This document shows, piece by piece, positions 50,733 through 63,112 of a stretch of 64,000 bases of DNA. Each line of letters starts with the position of its first letter. Position 1 is the stretch's first letter. Below the pieces are notes generated by a model that was given only the letters and a program-made list of their open reading frames with translations, did no database searches and was not told the origin of the DNA. Made by a program: the position numbers and the translations under genes. The stretch covers positions 248,001-312,000 of the forward strand of contig JACQZU010000014.1 in NCBI GenBank assembly GCA_016213735.1, written 5' to 3'. The DNA comes from Acidobacteriota bacterium (GTDB lineage Bacteria > Acidobacteriota > Holophagae > Holophagales > Holophagaceae).

Positions 50733-50767
50733 TTGCCCGGACAATTCGAAATATCTAGAATCTAATT
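50733..50767 (+). promoter_or_regulatory. arsR promoter/operator (site A)
   Basis: -35 TTGCCC (50733-50738), 17-bp spacer, -10 TAGAAT (50756-50761). The spacer and -10 contain TTCGAAATATCTAGAAT (50745-50761), an imperfect dyad (14 of 18 positions symmetrical when one flanking A is added). The same motif occurs in the promoters at 53.35 and 60.99 kb. Its position between and over the -35/-10 boxes is the normal place for a repressor site. Confidence 0.7.
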
Positions 50768-50779
50768 CCGGAGGGGAAG

Positions 50780-51157
50780 ATGCCGACCCGGGTTGAGCGG
50801 AATGCCGAACGCTTCCAGGCCCTCGGGAATCCCATCCGCCTCGCGATTCTCCGCCTCCTCGTCCAGGGGAAGGAGGCCGGGACCTCCGTGGGGGACATCC
50901 AGAAGAAGGTGGGGATTCCCGGTTCGACCCTCAGCCACCACCTCTCCCGGCTGGCCAAGACGGGGCTGGCCAGGGTGGAGCGGGACGGCCATTCCCTGCT
51001 CTACCGGGCGGACTTTCAGAGGCTCCATCGGCTCACGGACTACCTGTGGGAGGACTGCTGCAAGGGAGGCCGGATGATGGACGGGAGCCTTTCGTCCGGC
51101 ACGGAGGCGGCCCCGGGCGCCTGCCCGACCGGCGCGTGCTCCTCCCCCGAGGATTGA
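50780..51157 (+). CDS. arsR: ArsR/SmtB-family metalloregulator
   Basis: A 125-residue winged-helix repressor. ERFQALGNPIRLAILRLLVQG and GIPGSTLSHHLSRLAKTGLARVERDG are the ArsR core and recognition helix. Metal-binding residues are in the C-terminal helix: Cys93-Cys94 in DYLWEDCCKGG, plus Cys115 and Cys120 in the tail. No Cys is present in the recognition-helix region, so the site is unlike E. coli ArsR and like the C-terminal vicinal-Cys type. Arsenite or another thiophile would release DNA. It lies just downstream of site A, so it probably regulates itself and, by shared sites, the two promoters further on. Confidence 0.93.
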   Translation: MPTRVERNAERFQALGNPIRLAILRLLVQGKEAGTSVGDIQKKVGIPGSTLSHHLSRLAKTGLARVERDGHSLLYRADFQRLHRLTDYLWEDCCKGGRMMDGSLSSGTEAAPGACPTGACSSPED

Positions 51158-51308: not shown

Positions 51309-51728
51309 ATGCACCAGGCTTCGATCGAGAACAGAGGGGATTCCAGGCTGCTGGCCACCACCCGGCGCGGGGGCTTCCTCATGGATGCCCAGGGCCTGGG
51401 AACCGATCCCGTGGACGCCCTGCTGGCCAGCCTCTGCGGGTGCCTTGGGCGCAGCCTCCGGGCCTTCCTCCACCAGGAACGACGGGGCGGGGAGGCCTTC
51501 ACCATATCTGCGCGGGCCGGCCTCACCCCGGACGGCACCTTGGTGGACACCATCGAAGTCCTTGTGTCTCCGGAGGGGTCCTGGTGGAACGAAGCCCAGC
51601 GGGAGCGGATGCTCCAATCCCTCAGGGGCTCCAAGGTATTCCGCATCCTCAGCGTGGTGCCCGGCATCCGCCTGGCCTTGGCGGAACCGTCGGTCCGCAC
51701 GGGAACCGCCTCCAGGGTCCTCGCATGA
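51309..51728 (+). CDS. OsmC-family protein
   Basis: A 139-residue OsmC/Ohr-fold protein (GTDPVDALLASLCGCLGRSLRAFL carries the first reactive Cys region). The second Cys of the Ohr pair is not obvious, which favours the OsmC/YhfA-like branch. These proteins reduce peroxides or bind small thiol compounds. Follows arsR after 151 nt and is coupled by ATGA to the GNAT gene. Confidence 0.82.
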   Translation: MHQASIENRGDSRLLATTRRGGFLMDAQGLGTDPVDALLASLCGCLGRSLRAFLHQERRGGEAFTISARAGLTPDGTLVDTIEVLVSPEGSWWNEAQRERMLQSLRGSKVFRILSVVPGIRLALAEPSVRTGTASRVLA

Positions 51729-52546
51729 GCGGGCTCCTCCGGATCCGCCCGCTGGTGGAATCCGACCTCCCCCTTGTGGGGCATTTCCCGCCCCCGGAGT
51801 GGAATTTCTCCTTCCAGGACCTTCTGCGGAGGCACCTCGGGCGTTCCTACTTCATCCCGCTGGTGGGGGAATGCGGGGGCGAGGTCGCCGCGGTGGGACA
51901 TGGGCTCAGCCACGGGGACACGGGCTGGCTGGGGAACATCATCGTGAGCGAAGGCCATCGGCGGAAAGGCTTCGGCCTTGCCCTCACGTCGGCCCTGATG
52001 GAGCGCCTTCGCCACGCCGGCTGCCGGCGTCAGGTCCTGATCGCCACCTCCATGGGAGAGCCGCTCTATGCCCGGCTGGGTTTCAGGGTCACCGGGCGCT
52101 ACACCTTCTTCAAAGCCTGGCGCATGGACGGGCCCGGGGCGGTGCCCGGCGTCCGCCCCCTCTGTGCCGGCGACGAAGCCGAGCTGCTCAGGCTGGACCG
52201 CCAGGCCACGGGGGAGGACAGGGCGGCACTGCTTTCGGGGTTCCTGTTGGGGGGCTTCGCCCACCGCCTCCACCCGAAGGGGGACCTCGGCGGGTTCTAC
52301 CTTCCCGGGCTCGGGGCGGGGCTGGTGGTGGCGCGCGATCGGGAGGCCGGGGAGGCCCTCCTGCGGTTCAAACACATGGACCAGGAAGCCGGGAGCGTGA
52401 TCCCCGAGGACAACAGGGAGGCCAGGGATTTCCTCCTCGGCCTGGGCTGCCTGGAGACGGGCACCGCTCCCCGCATGGAGCTGGGGACGGAGCTCGCCTG
52501 GCGGCCCGGGATGGTCTGGAGCCGGGGGGCGGGCTGGTGCGGGTGA
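51725..52546 (+). CDS. GNAT-family acetyltransferase with a second domain
   Basis: A 273-residue protein. Residues 1-130 are a GNAT with NIIVSEGHRRKGFGLALTSALMERLR (acetyl-CoA loop) and PLYARLGFRVTGRY. Residues 140-273 resemble the YitH/HsdR-like C-terminal GNAT-related domain (DREAGEALLRFKHMDQEAGSVIP). Substrate unknown. Stop overlaps the next gene by GTGA. Confidence 0.8.
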   Translation: MSGLLRIRPLVESDLPLVGHFPPPEWNFSFQDLLRRHLGRSYFIPLVGECGGEVAAVGHGLSHGDTGWLGNIIVSEGHRRKGFGLALTSALMERLRHAGCRRQVLIATSMGEPLYARLGFRVTGRYTFFKAWRMDGPGAVPGVRPLCAGDEAELLRLDRQATGEDRAALLSGFLLGGFAHRLHPKGDLGGFYLPGLGAGLVVARDREAGEALLRFKHMDQEAGSVIPEDNREARDFLLGLGCLETGTAPRMELGTELAWRPGMVWSRGAGWCG

Positions 52547-53286
52547 CGGAGGCCGGGAGGGGGGTTCCCGATTCCAGGAACCCGGATGGTCGGCTCCTGG
52601 CGGTGAACCTCCTGCAAACCCGGCGCTTCGCCGAAATGTTCTCCGAGTCCATCGAGGGGGCGGCCCGGGCGGCCTCTCTCCCCTGGAGCGTGGTGGGGCC
52701 CGGGGAGATTCCCAGACCGGGGGAATGGGACCGCTTCACCCACCTGCTCCTCTCGGGGTCGGAGGCCTCCGCCCTCCTGCCGCAGCCCTGGGAGCAGGAA
52801 CTCCGCACCCTGGTGGCTGCCTGGGCCGCCTCGGGGAAGCCCGGTCTGGGCATCTGCTATGGACACCAGTTCCTCGCCAAGGTCCTCCTCGGACCCCAGT
52901 CCCTCCGGCGCTCCTCCACTCCGGAATTCGGTTTCGTGCGGACCCGGTTCGCCCCGCACCCCCTCTTCGAAGGGCTTGGGGATGCCTTCTTCTTCAACGC
53001 ACACATGGAAGAGGTCCACCGCCTGCCGGAGCATGGCAGGGTGCTCGCCGCCACCGACCGCTGTCCGATCCAGGCCGTGGCGTACGGCCCCGGTCCCCTG
53101 GTGGGGGTCCAGTTCCATCCGGAATTCGACCGGCTCCAGGGCGAGGAGATCCTCCGGAGCCTGGGCCGGAGTCCCCGTCCCACCCCGGCCCCGGAGGGCG
53201 GGGCCGGCCGGGTGGTGCTCGGGCGCTTTCTTCGCCTGCGCCCCGGCCCGGGGCGGGGCCAGCCCGAGCCACCCGGCGTCCGGTAG
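52543..53286 (+). CDS. Class I glutamine amidotransferase-like protein
   Basis: A 247-residue GATase1 with the nucleophile elbow GLGICYGHQFLA and the His-Glu dyad in GVQFHPEFDRL. It resembles stand-alone GMP-synthase-like amidotransferases (YfeJ, gamma-glutamyl hydrolase-like). GTG start overlapping the GNAT stop. The last 50 residues are Pro/Gly/Arg-rich. It ends 25 nt before the site B promoter region, so read-through from arsR into the oxidoreductase operon is possible. Confidence 0.8.
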   Translation: MTEAGRGVPDSRNPDGRLLAVNLLQTRRFAEMFSESIEGAARAASLPWSVVGPGEIPRPGEWDRFTHLLLSGSEASALLPQPWEQELRTLVAAWAASGKPGLGICYGHQFLAKVLLGPQSLRRSSTPEFGFVRTRFAPHPLFEGLGDAFFFNAHMEEVHRLPEHGRVLAATDRCPIQAVAYGPGPLVGVQFHPEFDRLQGEEILRSLGRSPRPTPAPEGGAGRVVLGRFLRLRPGPGRGQPEPPGVR

Positions 53287-53310
53287 GATCTCCCAGGCCC
53301 GGCCTGGAAA

Positions 53311-53370
53311 ACAAAATTCCAAAAATTTCGAAATTTTTGTTGCTTCTTATTTCGAAAATTTTAGATTGTT
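53311..53370 (+). promoter_or_regulatory. Promoter/operator of the oxidoreductase operon (site B)
   Basis: A 60-bp AT-rich module. It contains a perfect palindrome AAAAATTTCGAAATTTTT (53321-53338) and TTCGAAAATTTTAGATT (53351-53367), the motif shared with sites A and C. TTGCTT (53340-53345) and TAGATT (53362-53367) with a 16-bp spacer make a plausible promoter, placing the start about 20 nt before the ferredoxin start codon. Confidence 0.68.
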
Positions 53371-53388: not shown

Positions 53389-54198
53389 GTGGAAATGACG
53401 GGCGGCGGACGGGAGGAGGGATCGGCTGGAATTCCAGGGACGCCCCAGGGGGCGGCCTCCCGGAACGCCGTCCCGCCCCGGCCCGCCCGCCGACACTTCA
53501 CCCTTGCGGCGGGGGCCACCCTGGCCCTGGCCCTGGTGGCCCGGAGGAGGGTCGGGGGCCGCGCGGAGGGCGTCTCCCTGCCGCCGCGCAGGGGTCGCAA
53601 GGCCATGGCAATCGACCTGGATCGCTGCATGGGGTGCCAGGCCTGCGCCGTGGCCTGCAAGGCGGAACACGGGGTGCGTCTCGGGGGATTCCGTTCCTGG
53701 GTCTCGGAGGAAGAGAACGGCCGTTTTCCGGCCGTGACCCGGGACTTCCTGCCCCGGCTGTGCAACCACTGCGGGAACGCCCCCTGCCTGAAGGTCTGCC
53801 CCACGGGGGCCACCCTCCGCCGGGCCGACGGGATCGTGGTCGTGGATTCCGCGCGCTGCATCGGGTGCCGGCACTGCATGGCCGCCTGCCCCTACAACGC
53901 GCGCTACTTCAATTCGCAGCTGGACCCCGGGCCGGAACAGGCGCGCTTCACCGCCCGGACCCATGGCACGGTGGACAAGTGCGACTTCTGCGCCCGCCGG
54001 ACCGACGCCGGCCGGCAGCCCGCCTGCGTGGAGACCTGTCCGGCCGCGGCCCGGGTGTTCGGAGACGCGGACGACCCGGACTCCCCGGTCTCCCGCCTCC
54101 GGGCGACCGGCCGTGGGGCCGGACTGCTGGAGGAGCTGGGCACCCAGCCTTCGGTGTTCTACCTCGGGCGACGGGGGGCAGGCCCCCCCAGGACCTGA
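53389..54198 (+). CDS. Four-cluster ferredoxin subunit of a molybdopterin oxidoreductase complex
   Basis: A 269-residue iron-sulfur subunit (PsrB/DmsB/TtrB-like). Sixteen cysteines in four groups: CMGCQACAVAC, CNHCGNAPCLKVC, CIGCRHCMAAC, and CDFC followed by CVETC. All four groups would hold [4Fe-4S] clusters. The N-terminus contains ARRHFTLAAGATLALALVA, a degenerate Tat-like or anchor segment. GTG 53389 or ATG 53395 may start it. It carries electrons between NrfD and the catalytic subunit. Confidence 0.92.
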   Translation: MEMTGGGREEGSAGIPGTPQGAASRNAVPPRPARRHFTLAAGATLALALVARRRVGGRAEGVSLPPRRGRKAMAIDLDRCMGCQACAVACKAEHGVRLGGFRSWVSEEENGRFPAVTRDFLPRLCNHCGNAPCLKVCPTGATLRRADGIVVVDSARCIGCRHCMAACPYNARYFNSQLDPGPEQARFTARTHGTVDKCDFCARRTDAGRQPACVETCPAAARVFGDADDPDSPVSRLRATGRGAGLLEELGTQPSVFYLGRRGAGPPRT

Positions 54199-54203
54199 GC
54201 CCC

Positions 54204-55745
54204 GTGGAAAGCGAGGCTTCCGTGGACCGCACGATCGAATCCTCCATTCTCCGGCCCCTCCGCGAGCCCGGCGGGACCCGGCCCTGGAGGGGACGGATCC
54301 TGGCCCTTGGCACGGCGATTTGGATGTGGTCCTGCGCCCGGATCCTCTCGGAAGGGCACGGGCTCCTGGGGACCGGCAGCTACGGGGTGTCCTGGGGCCT
54401 CACCGTGGCCAACACGATCCACCTCATCGGGATCAGCCACGTGGGCATCGCGGTGTCCGCCGTGGTGCGGGTCCTGGGGCTCGAGCGCTTCCGGAACGCC
54501 GCGCGGATCGCGGAGCTGCTGACCCTGGTCTCCCTCCTCCTGGCGGTGGCGAACATCACCCTGGACGTGGGTCGTCCGGACCGCTTCCTGGTGAACACCC
54601 TGGTCCACGGACGCTGGCACGCTCCCATGGTCTGGTCCGCCACGGTGATCTCCCTCTACCTGGTTTCCAGCGGGGTCTACCTGTACCTGTCCATGCGCCG
54701 GGACCTCTGGGTCCTCTCGAGGACCGAGCTGCCCTTCCGGGCCCTCTACGCCGCCCTTTCCCTGGGCTACAGGGACACCGAGGAATCCCGGAACCGCCAC
54801 GACCAGGCCCTGTCCTGGCTGGCCCTGGCCCTCATTCCCGTGATGGTTTCGGTTCATTCGGTCTACGGGCTCTTCTTCGGACTGCTGAGCGCCCGGCCGG
54901 GGTGGCACAACCCCCTCCAGGCCCCTTACTTCGTTCTGGGGGCCGTGGTGTCGGGCTTTTCGGCCCTCGTCGTCCTTCTGGCCCTGCTGCGGCGGGAATT
55001 CGCCTGGCGGGAGCTCCTGGAGGAGCGCCTGTTCCGGGTGTTCGCGGTCTTCCTGGCCTTCGTGATCTTCCTCTACCTCTACTTCACCGGAAGCGAGCAC
55101 CTCACCGCCCAGTACGCCGGGCCACCGGCGGAACGCGCCCTGTCCGGGCTGGTCCTGGGCGGGTCCTACGCCTGGGCCTTCTGGGGGACGATGACCGCGG
55201 GACTGCTCGCCCTGATTTGGCTGCTCCGCCTGGCCCGGCGCCCGGGGCCCGTGAAGGTCGGGGCCATCGCGGCGGCCGCGGCCCTGGTGAACGGGGCCAT
55301 GTTCGCCAAGCGGGTCCTGCTGCTCCTTCCACCCCAGCAGCATCCAGCGCTCCCGACCCCCCTCCCGCCCGGCCTCTATGTCCCCACCGCGGTGGAACTG
55401 GCGGCCACCTTCGGTACCTACCTTGCCGGGGCCCTGGCCTTCCTCGGGATTCTTCGTTTCCTCCCGGCCATCGAGCTGCCCCTCGCGGAACCGGAGGACG
55501 CCCTCGCCTGGACGGGGACGAGGGACCCCTGGCGTCGCGCGGTGGTTCCGCTCACCATCGCCGCGGGCCTGGTGCTGGTGGTCTGGGGCGTGCGGGGCCG
55601 GGAGGCGGATTTTGCGCCGCTGAAATGGATCTCCGGGCTGCTCCTCCTCGCCCTGGTGCCCCTGGAATGGTGCCTCCTGGGGGGGCAGGGAAAGCCCGGG
55701 GCTGTTCCCGACAGTTCTTTCGTCCGCCAGGAGGCCGAAGGATGA
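54204..55745 (+). CDS. NrfD-family quinone-interacting membrane subunit
   Basis: About 513 residues, larger than PsrC-type NrfD (about 320) and closer to the HybB/ActC/DsrP-like group. Roughly nine to ten helices. The second to fourth helices carry GVSWGLTVANTIHLIGISHVGIAVSAVVR and LTLDVGRPDRFLVNTLVHGRW-type segments seen in the family, and a conserved Asp/Arg pair (DVGRPDR). GTG 54204 is the likely start (5 nt after the ferredoxin stop), with GTG 54222 possible. It couples quinol oxidation or reduction to the periplasmic enzyme. Stop overlaps the next ATG (ATGA). Confidence 0.88.
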   Translation: MESEASVDRTIESSILRPLREPGGTRPWRGRILALGTAIWMWSCARILSEGHGLLGTGSYGVSWGLTVANTIHLIGISHVGIAVSAVVRVLGLERFRNAARIAELLTLVSLLLAVANITLDVGRPDRFLVNTLVHGRWHAPMVWSATVISLYLVSSGVYLYLSMRRDLWVLSRTELPFRALYAALSLGYRDTEESRNRHDQALSWLALALIPVMVSVHSVYGLFFGLLSARPGWHNPLQAPYFVLGAVVSGFSALVVLLALLRREFAWRELLEERLFRVFAVFLAFVIFLYLYFTGSEHLTAQYAGPPAERALSGLVLGGSYAWAFWGTMTAGLLALIWLLRLARRPGPVKVGAIAAAAALVNGAMFAKRVLLLLPPQQHPALPTPLPPGLYVPTAVELAATFGTYLAGALAFLGILRFLPAIELPLAEPEDALAWTGTRDPWRRAVVPLTIAAGLVLVVWGVRGREADFAPLKWISGLLLLALVPLEWCLLGGQGKPGAVPDSSFVRQEAEG

Positions 55746-58081
55746 CTCCATCCAACCGCAGGGAATTCTTCGCCCGGAGCGCCGCCGCCGCCGGGAGCCT
55801 CCTCGGGGGGGCCGCGCTTCTCCTGCCGGACAGCTTCCGGAAGGGTCCGGCCGGTCCGGACGAAGCGGTCCCCGCCCCGGGCCGGCCCCGCACGACGGTG
55901 CCCTCCGCCTGCTGGCAGTGCGTCACCCGCTGCCCGATCCTGGGCACGGTGGAGGGGGAACGCCTCGTGAAGATCGACGGCAACCCCGCCTCCCAGGCCA
56001 CCCGGGGCCGGATCTGCGCCAAGGGCCAAGCCGGGATCAACCAGGTGGAGGATCCCGATCGTGTGCTCCACCCCCTCCTGCGCACCGGTGCCCGGGGGGA
56101 AGGTCGCTGGAAGCGCATCACCTGGGACGAGGCCCTGGACCTCCTGGTGGAGGGGGGGGAGGTGGCCGGCCGGAAGGTGCGGGGCCTGCGTTCGCTCCGC
56201 GACTCGGGCGTGCCGGAGAAGTTCCTCTTCCACTATGGCCGCTGCGTGGGGAGCGACTGGACGATCCTGATGGACCACTTCCTGCCTGCCTACGGCACGG
56301 GATCGGTGGGGGACCACGACGCCATCTGCATGGCCGCGGGAAGCGTGGCCGGCGCGCTCACCGGGGGCGGGTCACCCTTCATGGATCTCTCGAAAGCCGC
56401 CATGGTGCTGAATTTCGGAAGCAGCCCCCTGGAGGCCACCACCGACCACATCCCCACCGCCCAGCGATTCGTCGAGGCCCTCGCCCGGGGGGTCCGCGTG
56501 GTGAGCTTCGATCCCAGGCTCTCCAACACCGCGGCGAAATCCACGGAGTGGGTGCCCCTCAAGCCCGCCACCGACCTCGCCGTGCTGTTGGCCATGAGCC
56601 ACGCGATCCTGGAGGCCGGATTGGAAGACGGGGCCTTCATCTCGGGCCACACCAACGCCACGGTCCCGGAGCTCCGCGCCCACCTGGCGCCCTTCACCCC
56701 CGCCTGGGCGGAAAACCTCAGCGGCGTTCCCGAAGGGCGGATCCGCAGCCTGGCCCTGGATTACGCCCGGAGCAAGCCCGGCGTGTGCCTCAGCGCACGG
56801 GGCGCCTTCATGCACCACAACGGGGTGCAGACCCAGCGCGCCATCCACCTGCTGCAGGCGCTCACCGGCAACGTGGACCCCGCCGGGCGGCCGGCGCGCC
56901 GCCCGGCCTGGCGCTTCCCCTTCCCGACCCCCGCTCCCGCCACCCGGAAACTCCCCGTCTTCGAAGGGGAACCCGGGGCCTACTCCCACCCCTTCTCCGG
57001 GGTTTCGCACCAGATCCTCAGGAGGATCGCCAAGGGCCCCGACCGGCCCGAGATCTACATGCTGTACTGTCACAACCCTGTCTATTCGAACGGGGACTGC
57101 GACGCCAACGCCCGGGTGTTGGCCGACCCGGGCCTGGTGCCCTTTCTCGTCTCGGTGGACGTGGGCCTGGGGGAGTCCACCCTGCTCGCCGACCTGGTGC
57201 TTCCGGACGCCACCTACCTGGAGCGCTGGACCTGCGACGGCAAGGTCACGCCCGAGGGCCTGGCCGAGTACCAGCTCCGCCAGCCGATCGTGGCGCCCCG
57301 GGGACAGGCGCGGCACTTCCCCGACGTGGCCTGCGAGGTGGCCCGGCGACTGGGGGTGGACCTGGGCTTCTCCTCCGCCGAGGCCTTCATCCGGGCGGCC
57401 TGCGAAGCCACGCCCGAGGTCCGCGCCGCCGGCGGATTCGAAGCCATGAAAGCCCTGGGCGTGTGGGTGGATCCCCGTCCCCCCGAGCCCGGAAATCCGC
57501 GGGGACCCATGCAACTCCGCTCCGAGGCGCTCGAAAAGGCGGGCTTTTCCGCCCTTCCGGCCTGGATGCCGGTGCCGGAGCATGGCGCCATGACCGAGGA
57601 GGACCTGGTTCTGGTGACCTTCAAGGTCCCCGTCCAGACCCAGTCCCGCTCCCAGAACTGCAAGTGGCTCACCGAGCTCTACCACGAGAATCGCGCCTGG
57701 ATCCACCCCGAGGCCGCGGCCCGTCGGGGCCTGCGGGACGGTGAGGAGGTCCTCGTCCGCTCCGCCATCGGCCAGATCCGGATCCCCCTCAAGGTCACCG
57801 AGGGCATCCATCCCCGGGCCCTGGCCATTTCGCACCACTGCGGCCACTGGTCCCGGAGCGACTACGCCGCAGGCCAGCCGGCACCCCACGGCCGGCCGGA
57901 GGCCGACAGCCCCCTCCGGTGGTGGAGGGGGCACGGGGCCCACGTGAACCGGATCATTCCCACCCTGGGGGACCCCATCGCAGGGGCCATGCGTTGGAAC
58001 GACACCGTCGTCCAGGTGCGGAAGCTGCCGGACGGGGTCCGCGGGGAGTCCGACCTCCCGAAGATCGGCTCCAGCCGGTGA
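55742..58081 (+). CDS. Tat-exported molybdopterin oxidoreductase, catalytic subunit (Psr/Phs/Ttr/Arr-like)
   Basis: A 779-residue DMSO-reductase-family catalytic subunit. A twin-arginine signal (SNRREFFARSAAAAGSLLGGA) gives export. The [4Fe-4S] site is C57-x2-C60-x3-C64-x27-C92, and Cys196 in GDHDAICMAAG is the probable Mo ligand. The C-terminal cofactor-binding domain is complete (QSRSQNCKWLTELYHENRAWI to the end). The Cys spacing and the Cys ligand fit polysulfide/thiosulfate/tetrathionate and arsenate reductases. I cannot choose among them, and it could run in the oxidative direction. The linked ferredoxin and NrfD complete the quinone-linked complex. Confidence 0.9.
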   Translation: MTPSNRREFFARSAAAAGSLLGGAALLLPDSFRKGPAGPDEAVPAPGRPRTTVPSACWQCVTRCPILGTVEGERLVKIDGNPASQATRGRICAKGQAGINQVEDPDRVLHPLLRTGARGEGRWKRITWDEALDLLVEGGEVAGRKVRGLRSLRDSGVPEKFLFHYGRCVGSDWTILMDHFLPAYGTGSVGDHDAICMAAGSVAGALTGGGSPFMDLSKAAMVLNFGSSPLEATTDHIPTAQRFVEALARGVRVVSFDPRLSNTAAKSTEWVPLKPATDLAVLLAMSHAILEAGLEDGAFISGHTNATVPELRAHLAPFTPAWAENLSGVPEGRIRSLALDYARSKPGVCLSARGAFMHHNGVQTQRAIHLLQALTGNVDPAGRPARRPAWRFPFPTPAPATRKLPVFEGEPGAYSHPFSGVSHQILRRIAKGPDRPEIYMLYCHNPVYSNGDCDANARVLADPGLVPFLVSVDVGLGESTLLADLVLPDATYLERWTCDGKVTPEGLAEYQLRQPIVAPRGQARHFPDVACEVARRLGVDLGFSSAEAFIRAACEATPEVRAAGGFEAMKALGVWVDPRPPEPGNPRGPMQLRSEALEKAGFSALPAWMPVPEHGAMTEEDLVLVTFKVPVQTQSRSQNCKWLTELYHENRAWIHPEAAARRGLRDGEEVLVRSAIGQIRIPLKVTEGIHPRALAISHHCGHWSRSDYAAGQPAPHGRPEADSPLRWWRGHGAHVNRIIPTLGDPIAGAMRWNDTVVQVRKLPDGVRGESDLPKIGSSR

Positions 58082-59604
58082 AGCCCCTGGCCCTGGCGCC
58101 TGAAGGATCGCCCCTGGAGGGGGCTCCGGAACTTTCCCTGGATCCCGAGGATTGGACCTCCTTCCGGGAGCTGGTCCGGCGGGCGGCGGACGAAATGATG
58201 GACTACCTGGAAACGGTGCGCGAACGCCCCGCCTGGCAGCGGGTTCCCTCCCAGGTGCAGGCGCGCTTCGAGGCCCCCCCGCCGGTGGAGGGAATGGAGG
58301 CCGCCCGGGTCTACGAGGAATTCCGGGAGAGCATCCTGCCCTTTCCAGAAGGAAACATCCATCCCCGCTTCTGGGGGTGGGTGATCGGGACCGGCACGCC
58401 GGTAGGGGTGCTGGCCGAAATGCTGGCCGCCACCATGAACACCCCTGTCCCGGGTTTCGAGCAGTCGGCCTACTACGTCGAACGCCAGGTCATGGATTGG
58501 CTCCGACAACTGTTCCTCATGCCTCCGGAGGCCAGCGGAATCCTGGTGAGCGGCGGCTCCGCCGCCAACCTGATCGGGCTGGCAGTGGCCAGGAACCAGA
58601 AGGCCGGGATCGACGTGCGGACCGAAGGCCTGGCGGCGGCCGGGGTCGCTCCCATGAGGGTGTACGCTTCGGCGGAAACCCACTCCTCAGTGCAGAAGGC
58701 GGTGGAACTGCTGGGCCTGGGAAGCCGGTCCCTGGTCCTTCTGCCCGTGGGCGAGGACTTCCGCCTGGACCTGGGGGCCCTCCGGGAGGCGGTGAGGGAG
58801 GACCGGCGGCGAGGCTTCCGGCCCTTCTGCGTCGTGGGCAACGCGGGGACCACCAACACGGGGGCCGTGGACGACCTGGCCATCCTGGCGGACTTCTGCG
58901 CCGCGGAGGACCTGTGGTTCCACGTGGACGGGGCGTTCGGCGCCACCGCGGCCCTCTCCCCCCGCCTGCGGCCCCTGCTCCAGGGGATGGAGCGCGCGGA
59001 TTCCCTGGCCTTCGACCTGCACAAGTGGGCGGCGATGCCCTACGAAGTTGGAGGGGTGTTCGTCCGGGATGCGGGAGCCCACGCCCGGGCCTTCTCCCTC
59101 CACGCCGAATACCTGAATTCGCTGGAGGCTGGAGCCTCGGGCAACGGCACCCCCTTCGCGGACCTTGGCCTCCAGCTCTCCCGGGGTTTCCGGGCCCTGA
59201 AGGTCTGGATGTCCGTCAAGACCTTCGGCCTCGCCAGAATGGCCGCCATCCTGGAGCAGAACGTGGACCAGGCCCGCCACCTCGCGGCCCTGGTCCAGGA
59301 ACATCCCCGGCTCCAGCTCCTGGCGCCCGCCGGCCTCAACGTCGTGGCCTTCCGCTACGCCGCGCCGGGCCTCCGGGAGGCGGCCCTGGATGCCCTCAAC
59401 GCCCGACTGTTGCTGGACCTTCAGGAAAGCGGTTTCGCCGTGCCCTCCGGGACCACGCTCCGGGGACGCTTCGCCCTCCGGGTGGCGTCCGTGAACCATC
59501 GCAGCCGGCGGGAAGACTTCGCGGCCCTGGTGCGGGAGGTGGCGCGGCGGGGCGATGCCCTGGCCGCCGGACCCGAACCCGGCCGGGACAGGCCGGGGGG
59601 ATGA
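58078..59604 (+). CDS. PLP-dependent group II decarboxylase (AADC/glutamate-cysteine sulfinate type)
   Basis: A 508-residue fold-type I decarboxylase. PLP Lys is in AFDLHKWAAMPYEVGG, the PLP-contacting Asp/His in LWFHVDGAFGATAAL, and the N-terminal HPRFWGWVIGTGTPVGVLAEML opens the active site. It is translationally coupled to the molybdoenzyme by GTGA. It removes CO2 from an amino acid. Aromatic amino acids, glutamate or cysteine sulfinate are family possibilities. Such a decarboxylase in a respiratory operon is unusual. Confidence 0.87.
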   Translation: MKPLALAPEGSPLEGAPELSLDPEDWTSFRELVRRAADEMMDYLETVRERPAWQRVPSQVQARFEAPPPVEGMEAARVYEEFRESILPFPEGNIHPRFWGWVIGTGTPVGVLAEMLAATMNTPVPGFEQSAYYVERQVMDWLRQLFLMPPEASGILVSGGSAANLIGLAVARNQKAGIDVRTEGLAAAGVAPMRVYASAETHSSVQKAVELLGLGSRSLVLLPVGEDFRLDLGALREAVREDRRRGFRPFCVVGNAGTTNTGAVDDLAILADFCAAEDLWFHVDGAFGATAALSPRLRPLLQGMERADSLAFDLHKWAAMPYEVGGVFVRDAGAHARAFSLHAEYLNSLEAGASGNGTPFADLGLQLSRGFRALKVWMSVKTFGLARMAAILEQNVDQARHLAALVQEHPRLQLLAPAGLNVVAFRYAAPGLREAALDALNARLLLDLQESGFAVPSGTTLRGRFALRVASVNHRSRREDFAALVREVARRGDALAAGPEPGRDRPGG

Positions 59605-59617
59605 ATCCCCCCACCCT

Positions 59618-60328
59618 CTATTCCTCGATGGCGCCCCCGATGGCGCGGAGGTGCTGGCGGAAGGTGTACCCGGGCTCGACGGCCCGCCGTTCCAGGTAGG
59701 CCCCGAAGGCGAGCTGTTCGCGGAGGGAGTGCCCCTCGAGGACCCGCTGGGCCAGGCCGCGTTCCCGGAGCAGGATCTCCTGGGCGACCGGGAGGAGTTC
59801 CCCGAGGCTCTCCCGCGGGACGAAGAGCACCCCGTCCTCGTCGCAGACGGCGAAGTCCTCCCTCGTCACCGTGAAGGCCCCGAAGTGTGCGGCCCGCAAG
59901 GCGTCGGGGGGGCTGGGATCCGCCCGCAGGGGGCCCGTGGGGACGCTTCCGTAGCTGAAGACGGGGAATCTCATCCGCCGAAGCTCCGCGGTGTCCCTGT
60001 GGCAGCCCCAGACCAGGATGCCCGCCAGGCCCGCGGCCCTTGCCTCCAGGGCGCTGAGGTCTCCCACCGCCCCTTCGTCCGTGCGCCCGCCGTTGTCCAC
60101 CACCAGAAGGTCGCCGGGAAGGGCGGCCTCCATCGCCTCGAGGAAGATGTCCACGCTGCCGCTGTGGCGAACCGGCAGCACACGGCCCGCCAGAGGCAGC
60201 CCCCGGATCACGCCCCGGATTCCCAGGGGCGCCGCCCGGAGCGGAAGGCCCAGGCGGACGCAGGCATCCGCCAGGACTGCGGTGGGAATGAGGGCGGGCT
60301 CGGAGGTGGGCAGGGCGGGGCTGGGCAT
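59618..60328 (-). CDS. RraA-like / HMG-CHA aldolase family protein
   Basis: A 236-residue RraA-fold protein. Family features: LPLAGRVLPVRHSGSVDIFLEAMEAALPGDLLVVDNGGRTDEGAVGDLSALEARAAGLAGILVWGCHRDTAEL, where the DNGG and the following Arg/Asp bind divalent metal and substrate. Some members are RNase E regulators, while others are oxaloacetate decarboxylases or HMG aldolases. Start ATG 60328. Convergent with the decarboxylase gene. Confidence 0.82.
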   Translation of the reverse strand: MPSPALPTSEPALIPTAVLADACVRLGLPLRAAPLGIRGVIRGLPLAGRVLPVRHSGSVDIFLEAMEAALPGDLLVVDNGGRTDEGAVGDLSALEARAAGLAGILVWGCHRDTAELRRMRFPVFSYGSVPTGPLRADPSPPDALRAAHFGAFTVTREDFAVCDEDGVLFVPRESLGELLPVAQEILLRERGLAQRVLEGHSLREQLAFGAYLERRAVEPGYTFRQHLRAIGGAIEE

Positions 60329-60744: not shown

Positions 60745-60944
60745 GGGCTGTTCTCCTGGAGGATTCCGGGGGGCCGCCCCCGGGCCATTCTCCTCCAGGC
60801 TCCCCCGGGCCTTCCGGGGTCCCCCCGGGTGGCAGCCCTTCGGGTGGCGAACGGTACCGGTGGGAGCCCCGACGGGACGCGGCCGGGTCCCGCACCCCCG
60901 GACCCGGCGTCCCGGACCGGGAGGGAAAAGGGTCGGGTCGAAAA

Positions 60945-61003
60945 GAAAATTCCAAAATTTTCGAAATTTCGATGGAATTTTATTTCGAAAAATTTAGAAT
61001 TAA
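60945..61003 (+). promoter_or_regulatory. Promoter/operator of the permease gene (site C)
   Basis: An AT-rich module closely similar to site B: AAAATTCCAAAATTTTCGAAATTTCG first, then TTATTTCGAAAAATTTAGAATTAAAT. The core TTCGAAAAATTTAGAAT lies at 60984-61000, TAGAAT being a -10-like hexamer. The matching -35 is less clear. About 45 nt upstream of the permease start codon. The remaining gap back to the lipoprotein gene (60745-60940) is GC-rich without recognised features. Confidence 0.68.
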
Positions 61004-61048: not shown

Positions 61049-62122
61049 ATGTCCGAATCCCGAGTCTCGTGCTGTGGAAGCCGGCCCGCCGTCCAGGCGG
61101 CTCCGGGCGTTTGGAAGGCCTGGGGCTGGGTGCTGCCCGCCCTGGTCCTGGGGGTCCTGGCCTTTGCCGCCCTTGAACCGCTGTCCCGCTGGCTGCTGGG
61201 GCGGGTGCTGGGGCTGGACCTGGGCACGCGCCTGGGATCGGCGGCGGCCTTCTTCCTTTCGGAAGGTCCCCGGGTGCTGCTCCTTCTCGCGGGAGTGACC
61301 TTCCTGGTGGGTTTTCTTCAGAGCTTCCTCGATCCCGTCCGGACCCGGGACATCCTCGCCCGGCGCGCCGGGGCCTGGGGGAACCTGCTGGCCAGCCTGT
61401 TCGGGATCGTCACTCCCTTCTGTTCCTGCTCGGCGGTCCCGCTGTTCATCGGCTTCGTGCGGGTGGGGGTCCCCCTGGGGGTGACCTTCAGCTACCTGGT
61501 GGCCGCCCCCATGATCAACGAGGTGGCCCTGGTCCTGCTTCTGGCCATGTTCGGATGGAAGATTGCCGCCCTCTACGCCGCCACGGGGATCTCGGTGGCG
61601 TTCCTGTCCGGGTGGATCCTGGGGAAGTTCAGGCTGGAGGCCATGCTCGAGCCCTGGGTCTGGAAGGCGGTGGAGTCTCCCGAGAAGGGGTCCCTTCCGA
61701 GGCCCCGGGGAGAACAGCGACTGGCGCTGGCCTGGCGCAGCGCCCGGGAGATCGTGGGAAAGGTGTGGCCCTTCGTGCTGCTGGGCATCGGGGTGGGCGC
61801 CTTCATCCACGGCTACATTCCGGAGGGGGTCCTGGCGAGGTTCATGGGCAAGTCCTCCTGGTGGACCGTGCCCCTGGCCGTGCTCATCGGGGTTCCCCTC
61901 TACGCGAGCACGGCGGTGGTGCTGCCCATCGTCCAGACCCTTCTCGCCAAGGGCGCGGCCCTGGGGACCGTGCTGGCCTTCATGATGGCGGTGACCGCCC
62001 TCTCGGTTCCCGAGGTGCTCATCCTCCGGAGGGTGCTCAAGGCCAGGCTCATCGCCCTGTTCCTCGGGATCGTCACCCTGGGGATCCTGACGGTGGGATA
62101 CCTCTTCAACCTGCTTCTCTGA
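61049..62122 (+). CDS. ArsP-type (DUF318) permease
   Basis: A 357-residue membrane protein with about 8-10 helices, belonging to the ArsP_1/DUF318 family. The signature TPFCSCSAVPLFIGFVRVG has Cys125 and Cys127, and Cys8-Cys9 lie in the N-terminus. MINEVALVL and ASTAVVLPIVQTLL are further conserved loops. Family members export trivalent organoarsenicals or, in related branches, other thiophilic substrates. Placed behind operator site C, so likely under the same ArsR as the oxidoreductase operon. Confidence 0.9.
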   Translation: MSESRVSCCGSRPAVQAAPGVWKAWGWVLPALVLGVLAFAALEPLSRWLLGRVLGLDLGTRLGSAAAFFLSEGPRVLLLLAGVTFLVGFLQSFLDPVRTRDILARRAGAWGNLLASLFGIVTPFCSCSAVPLFIGFVRVGVPLGVTFSYLVAAPMINEVALVLLLAMFGWKIAALYAATGISVAFLSGWILGKFRLEAMLEPWVWKAVESPEKGSLPRPRGEQRLALAWRSAREIVGKVWPFVLLGIGVGAFIHGYIPEGVLARFMGKSSWWTVPLAVLIGVPLYASTAVVLPIVQTLLAKGAALGTVLAFMMAVTALSVPEVLILRRVLKARLIALFLGIVTLGILTVGYLFNLLL

Positions 62123-62251: not shown

Positions 62252-63112
62252 ATGGGATGCAACGCCAGGGCGGACGCCATCGAGTTCCCGGGACCGGTGG
62301 TGTCCTGCGGGTGGCTTCGGGAACGGCTGGGTCACCCGGGGCTGGTCCTGCTGGAGGCCCGCCTCCAGGCCGTGGCCCCCGGCCAGCCGCAGGGCGGGCC
62401 CCTGGGGATCCCCGGCGCCAGGGTCTTCGACCTGGAATGGATCCGGGACCGTTCTTCCAAGCTCCCGCACACCATGCCCTCCCCACGGGAGTTCGAGGTG
62501 GAACTCCAGGGCCTGGGGGTCTGCTCGGAAAGCCGGGTGGTCGTCTACGACCCTGGAGGGGTCTACGCCAGCCCCAGGGTGCGGTGGATGATCCGGGCCA
62601 TGGGGCATGACCGTGTGGCGGTGCTCGACGGGGGTCTGGACGCCTGGAAGGCCGGGGGTCACCCGGTGGAGGCGAACCCGGGAGGAGGGTGGGACCAGGG
62701 GGATTTCACGGCCCACCCGAGGGCCGGGTGGTTCACGGACGCCCAAGGGGTGATGGATGCGCTGGAGGGCGGACACGCCTGTGTGGTGGACGCGCGCTCC
62801 GAGGGCCGCTTCAGGGGCTTGGATCCCGAACCGCGCCCCGGACTCCGGGGCGGCCACATGCCCGGGGCGGTGAACCTGCCCTACGAGGAGGTGCTCCGGG
62901 GAGGCCACCTCCGCCCCTTGGCCGAATTGAGGGACCTCCTCGGGCGCCGGGTCGGTGACCGCTCCCGGCTGGTGTTCACCTGCGGGTCGGGGGTGACGGC
63001 CTGCCTTCCGGCCCTGGCTGCGGAACTGGCGGGCTATGCGGAACTGTCGGTTTACGACGGATCCTGGAGCGAGTGGGGGTCGCGGGAGGACTGGCCCCTG
63101 GCCCGGGGCTGA
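62252..63112 (+). CDS. sseA: Thiosulfate/3-mercaptopyruvate sulfurtransferase (two rhodanese domains)
   Basis: A 286-residue two-domain rhodanese. The inactive N-terminal domain is about 1-150 (VVVYDPGGVYASPRVRWMIRA). The C-terminal domain has the catalytic loop CGSGVTA (Cys244-Ala250), which matches mercaptopyruvate sulfurtransferases (CG[S/T]GVT) better than thiosulfate rhodanese (CRKGVT). It makes a protein persulfide and passes sulfur on. It follows the permease after 129 nt and may be in the same transcript. The proposed ArsR link brings sulfur handling into the regulon. Confidence 0.9.
   Translation: MGCNARADAIEFPGPVVSCGWLRERLGHPGLVLLEARLQAVAPGQPQGGPLGIPGARVFDLEWIRDRSSKLPHTMPSPREFEVELQGLGVCSESRVVVYDPGGVYASPRVRWMIRAMGHDRVAVLDGGLDAWKAGGHPVEANPGGGWDQGDFTAHPRAGWFTDAQGVMDALEGGHACVVDARSEGRFRGLDPEPRPGLRGGHMPGAVNLPYEEVLRGGHLRPLAELRDLLGRRVGDRSRLVFTCGSGVTACLPALAAELAGYAELSVYDGSWSEWGSREDWPLARG

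Follow-up and report, generated by a model that had tools for sequence, protein, structure and literature searches.

What does a molybdoenzyme operon that ends in a PLP decarboxylase gene do, and what switches it on? The operon lies in a 64,000-nucleotide stretch of DNA (the window) from a soil-type bacterium of the Acidobacteriota, whose 3.59-Mb genome is the single assembly for its genus in our sample. Its four co-directional genes encode an FeS protein, an NrfD-type protein, a molybdopterin (Mo) subunit and a group II PLP decarboxylase:

53395..54198, + strand: ferredoxin-type FeS electron-transfer subunit; 16 Cys (four [4Fe-4S] clusters expected), twin-arginine-like N-terminus
54204..55745, + strand: NrfD-type membrane subunit, 513 aa; PF03916, 11 hydrophobic segments by hydropathy
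55742..58081, + strand: catalytic molybdopterin subunit; PF00384/PF01568/PF04879, twin-arginine motif
58078..59604, + strand: group II PLP decarboxylase, translationally coupled, the last gene of the operon; PF00282 (1.7e-60)

The FeS gene ends at 54198 and the GTG start codon of the NrfD gene lies at 54204, leaving a gap of 5 nt. An ATGA overlap at 55742-55745 joins the NrfD stop codon to the ATG of the Mo subunit, and a GTGA overlap at 58078-58081 joins the Mo-subunit stop codon to the GTG of the decarboxylase. Homology-trained codon-usage gene calling in this GC-rich DNA gave the identical four genes. The four-gene operon with these junctions, which an earlier sequence-only reading had described, was confirmed by sequence, domain searches and gene calling; one small correction concerns the FeS start, which is more likely the ATG at 53395 than the GTG at 53389. 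A terminator scan found none between the Mo and decarboxylase genes (its 3 matches elsewhere were no more than in shuffles), and no promoter-like site was found there either, so the decarboxylase is presumably co-induced with the subunits. An RraA-like gene at 59618-60328 is convergent with the operon and lies 13 nt past the decarboxylase stop codon. The Rfam search gave no match, and the literature search returned no paper covering all terms for the gene combination.

The operon has the hallmarks of a CISM-type DMSO reductase (MopB) complex: FeS, NrfD and Mo subunits together, twin-arginine motifs ('RREFF' at residue 6 in the Mo subunit and 'RRHF' in the FeS protein), and an N-terminal [4Fe-4S] motif at Cys57 of the Mo subunit. 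The Mo subunit also carries HYGRC at residue 164 and a predicted Mo-ligand cysteine, Cys196. The proposal that the first three genes encode a quinone-linked enzyme thus agrees with the genes, domains and motifs, from which the assignment is predicted.

The clearest clue to function came from the promoter. The promoter elements and neighboring genes are as follows:

50743..50759, + strand: single operator-like site before the arsR-like gene, 2 mismatches to the motif
50780..51157, + strand: ArsR/SmtB-family regulator, 125 aa, probable repressor; Cys93-Cys94 (WEDCC), Cys115 and Cys120
53310..53370, + strand: operon promoter block, AT-rich, 61 bp, with a convergent operator pair
53318-53334 (- strand) and 53349-53365 (+ strand): operon operators, 17-bp sites at a 31-base offset
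53340 and 53362, + strand: operon promoter elements, -35-like TTGCTT and -10-like TAGATT with a 16-nt spacer
60943..61003, + strand: arsP promoter block, 47/61 identical to that of the operon (at most 39 for any other placement in the window)
60951-60967 (- strand) and 60982-60998 (+ strand): arsP operators, convergent 17-bp sites at a 31-base offset
61049..62122, + strand: ArsP_1 permease; PF03773, 59-63% identical to ArsP of family arsR-arsM-arsP operons
62252..63112, + strand: rhodanese / mercaptopyruvate sulfurtransferase-like gene, after arsP

Allowing one mismatch at most, we found the operator motif at only four places in the 3.59-Mb genome, in the operon and arsP promoters. When up to three mismatches were allowed, the motif gave 8 and 7 matches on the two strands versus 1 per strand for the reversed motif pattern, used as control in the same genome. 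On another contig of the genome (C18), an arsR-arsM-arsC operon has a weaker operator pair upstream, again offset by 31 bases; its ArsR shares 51% identity and the WEDCC cysteine pair with the ArsR of the window. In other genomes of the family, the operator lay just upstream of arsR-arsM at 20/20 examined sites, which had been picked from the listed matches before their context was seen; 16 of these sites had arsP, 59-63% identical to the window's, and they often lay beside arsC and acr3. The aligned family promoters all have the upstream palindrome, most have a TTGC -35 element, and the operator covers the -10 element. The operon promoter has the operator pair and the layout of these arsR-arsM(-arsP) operons. 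The remaining two-mismatch matches, above all those in AT-richer genomes where the control also matches, may be chance.

Judged from these promoter sequences, an arsenic-type ArsR very probably controls the operon, and this control is the best-supported functional clue at this locus; membership in an arsenic regulon is a new result, absent from the sequence-only reading. The arsP gene, 7.6 kb downstream of the operon promoter, is a probable member of the same regulon, and the rhodanese-like gene a possible one. The ArsR-family gene at 50780 scored 65.9 bits against the NCBIfam metalloregulator subfamily (cut-off, 55). Between it and the operon lie OsmC-like, GNAT and glutamine-amidotransferase genes (51309-53286), none of which was seen next to arsR in the other examined genomes; the GNAT gene has weak similarity to ArsN2 (25.8 bits versus a cut-off of 125).

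We then analyzed the catalytic subunit. According to a published survey, the Psr/Phs, Arx/Arr and Ttr/Srd lineages have in common a Cys ligand and act on compounds of sulfur, arsenic and selenium (PMC7331816). The tree that the sequence-only reading had proposed was run by maximum likelihood with five references, its PsrA, PhsA, TtrA and ArrA together with DmsA. In this tree, whose reference branches are long and whose PsrA and ArrA rows are partial, the Mo subunit fell in a strongly supported clade apart from all five references, grouping with proteins of Bacteroidota and Myxococcota, with Planctomycetota next. The clade has the motif HYGRM(K)...NHxSIC, in which the Arg, His and ligand Cys positions align with those of ArrA; the subclade that includes the window's protein has lost the Lys that follows the ligand Cys and often begins the motif with Asp (DHxxIC). 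The reported motifs are (R/K)GRY, near the active site, in ArrA and XGRGWG in ArxA (PMC6549141), and neither occurs in the Mo subunits of the clade. The predicted structure of the Mo subunit (pLDDT 88) matched PsrA most closely (Z 37.4 over 671 residues, 2.6 A), with ArrA tied (Z 36.6 over 683 residues, 2.7 A) and AioA at Z about 28.7; among solved structures, PsrA was the best match in both sequence and fold. The enzyme thus appears to belong to an uncharacterised clade near Psr and Arr.

A scan of 84,980 species, one genome each, yielded 73 related Mo-subunit loci in Bacteroidota, Planctomycetota, Myxococcota, Pseudomonadota, Nitrospirota and others. At E <= 1e-100 the Mo subunit was found in 0/76 other genomes of its family, and the best other match in the 396-genome phylum sample was 49% identical. 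This patchy distribution suggests that the molybdoenzyme was probably acquired by horizontal transfer. Many relatives have the gene order FeS-NrfD-Mo-TorD, and a TorD chaperone gene lies within two genes in 48/61 related loci having a called downstream gene; the window's genome yielded no TorD-family gene. At a Myxococcota locus, L051, the three subunits are 58, 50 and 54% identical to those of the window and NrfD is also long; the contig ends inside the Mo gene. The closest Mo relatives (Bacteroidota and Myxococcota) carry a MarR-type regulator. An arsenic association across the whole clade was looked for and not found: among the related loci, arsA/arsD-type genes occurred only at the clade member L054, which adjoins arsR-arsD-arsA and an acr3-like gene, and at the outlying relative L026 (an Azoarcus plasmid), which adjoins arsC-arsD-arsA-acr3. 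Since most Mo relatives have no nearby arsenic genes, we do not claim arsenic chemistry for the clade as a whole.

Several variations were seen among the relatives. Many clade members have Asp in place of the third Cys of the N-terminal [4Fe-4S] motif (C-x2-C-x3-C), as in CWQCVTRD (L049, L050, L051, L052, L053, L057, L066, L069, L070 and L083), whereas the window's Mo subunit retains Cys. Gammaproteobacterial contigs (L059, L061, L081, L086, L088, L097, L100 and L101) carry two different clade Mo subunits per gene array; each of the two has a separate FeS gene, and genes for a PhnD-like sensor, a kinase and a regulator often follow. In the Bacteroidota relatives L045-L048, FeS adjoins Mo and no NrfD was called between or beside them where the sequence allows, which suggests a form lacking the NrfD membrane anchor. 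The window's genome has a second Mo-FeS-NrfD set (L042, contig C8:73791-75809), which has counterparts in other genera of the family; its Mo subunit is 32% identical and falls closer to PhsA/PsrA in the tree.

The sequence-only reading had observed that the operon ends in a decarboxylase and not, as is usual for such operons, in chaperones or transporters, and this contrast with the relatives was borne out: none of the 73 related Mo loci (61 with a called downstream gene) has the decarboxylase. It had further suggested a functional link between molybdoenzyme and decarboxylase, to be checked by a search for conserved neighborhoods. We ran this search, and the pair was absent elsewhere, the outcome that the reading itself had named as counting against the link: there was no such pair in the 73 loci, no Mo subunit in the 76 other family genomes, and no conserved partner in the varied contexts of about 40 decarboxylase neighborhoods, labelled by BLAST and HMM. 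A conserved functional link is thus not supported. The decarboxylase family is widespread in the phylum, with homologues in 28/396 sampled genomes (E <= 1e-100). In two genomes from another genus of the family (L035:7317-13495 and L037:7266-13912), a decarboxylase homologue lies downstream of an FeS-NrfD pair of another kind, and a sensor-like gene and a GcvH/response-regulator gene are close by, a weak hint of a recurrent association.

The decarboxylase retains the invariant group II residues H202, D284, H315 and K316 (the PLP Lys, stacking His and Asp are conserved), and its predicted model has a pLDDT of 90.5. Its fold is matched about equally by tryptophan decarboxylase, DfoJ and a Sphaerobacter enzyme (Z 51-53), and with several specificities tied in this way its substrate is not predictable. 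The R. gnavus tryptophan decarboxylase (4obu/4obv) is the closest solved enzyme in sequence and fold (Z 52.6 over 462 residues), but it is only 27% identical, and the tie with DfoJ and the Sphaerobacter enzyme means that its specificity is not transferable. An aldehyde-synthase reading, based on a Phe at the catalytic-loop position, was rejected because bacterial homologues vary there. A functional tie to the molybdoenzyme, in which the decarboxylase supplies or removes an amine or amino acid or, in a variant, decarboxylates an arsenic-bearing amino acid, would suit the GTGA overlap, the lack of a visible terminator, and the two loci of the other genus. However, given its absence from all 73 related Mo loci, the varied contexts of some 40 homologues and the tied specificities, we regard such a tie as quite improbable. 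On present evidence, the decarboxylase is a lineage-specific, presumably co-expressed addition and not a subunit, and it looks like a one-off addition to the operon.

Because the promoter copies the switch of arsenic-resistance genes, the molybdoenzyme probably handles arsenic. We propose that the operon encodes a periplasmic oxidoreductase that is linked to quinone, is induced by As(III) and acts on an arsenic (or antimony) compound, and we put the probability of this whole reading at roughly one-half. Here the three-subunit periplasmic molybdoenzyme would have been placed in an arsenic regulon. The repressor, probably the ArsR-family protein that is encoded at 50780 and has a C-terminal Cys pair, would cover the -10 elements of the operon, arsP and its own gene until released by As(III)-type inducers. 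Electrons would most likely pass from quinol through NrfD and FeS to Mo, a pentavalent arsenic or antimony species (an oxyanion or an organoarsenical) would be reduced in the periplasm, and ArsP would export the trivalent products. Computation backs the operator, which matches those of arsR-arsM promoters across the family, as well as the gene order in the operon, the ligand Cys, the Psr/Arr-like fold and the separate clade. On the other hand, with few relatives near arsenic genes and MarR regulators in the closest ones, the regulon may reflect local wiring and not the substrate; the lack of both (R/K)GRY and XGRGWG in the clade also counts against arsenic, and the rhodanese gene and PsrA-like fold leave room for sulfur chemistry.

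That sulfur chemistry would be a Psr/Phs-like reduction of polysulfide or thiosulfate with the downstream rhodanese; the ArsR-family regulator would then either sense reactive sulfur or be a chance capture. Besides the rhodanese gene and the PsrA match, the ArsR has a weak similarity to BigR (36 bits versus a cut-off of 155). But the operator was of the arsR-arsM(-arsP) type in 20/20 examined cases and the Mo subunit lies outside the PsrA/PhsA group, which leaves this alternative a minority possibility. Alternatively, the enzyme might run in reverse, as a periplasmic oxidase of arsenite, antimonite or a trivalent methylarsenical that passes electrons to quinone and serves detoxification or energy generation. 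An enzyme that uses up the trivalent form could well be induced by it, and ArxA is a close precedent for the reversed direction (PMC6683785, PMC6549141); the XGRGWG motif and arxB2ABCD order of ArxA are missing, however, and sequence cannot tell direction. We consider this oxidase unlikely.

The promoter points to a concrete candidate inducer and substrate class for a DMSO reductase family branch that has so far had no assignment. If the arsenic reading is right, the enzyme would be an added arsenic redox route that surveys based on arrA, arxA or aioA would miss. A still broader reading, that this branch is a further class of arsenic (antimony, organoarsenical) molybdoenzyme beside Aio, Arr and Arx and is induced along with the ArsP exporter by trivalent arsenic acting through ArsR, is tentative and somewhat doubtful; a coupled decarboxylase acting on an arsenic-bearing amino acid is more speculative and less likely.

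Among known systems, PsrABC and PhsABC have the same subunit types and give the best fold match (Z 37.4), but PsrA and PhsA are only 28-32% identical to the Mo subunit and do not group with it (in a tree with long branches and a partial PsrA), their order is A-B-C instead of FeS-NrfD-Mo, and the window has an arsenic-type operator. The Dsr complex was rejected as a candidate: the FeS protein passes the DsrO model (220 versus 200 bits) and the NrfD protein is far below that of DsrP (59 versus 350). TtrBCA has the window's gene order, but TtrA is 24% identical and separate in the tree, the Mo subunit scores 106 bits against the TtrA model (NF011567, cut-off 1750), and TtrRS are missing here. ArrAB(C) likewise pairs a Cys-ligated molybdopterin subunit with an FeS partner, with equivalent Arg, His and ligand Cys; however, ArrA is 26% identical, lies outside the clade, has another gene order and has (R/K)GRY where the window has HYGRC. 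Against the ArrA model (NF041714), the Mo subunit scores 160 bits versus a cut-off of 1600, which no subunit in the window's genome reached. ArxAB (arxB2ABCD) is a quinone-linked arsenic molybdoenzyme, like the one proposed here; arx loci differ in having arxXSR and TorD, both missing from the window, and PhnD-HK-RR genes similar to arxXSR occur in several clade relatives. In type 2 ArsR, the C-terminal cysteines are probable As(III) ligands (PMC6683785), and the C-terminal Cys pair of the window's ArsR agrees with this type.
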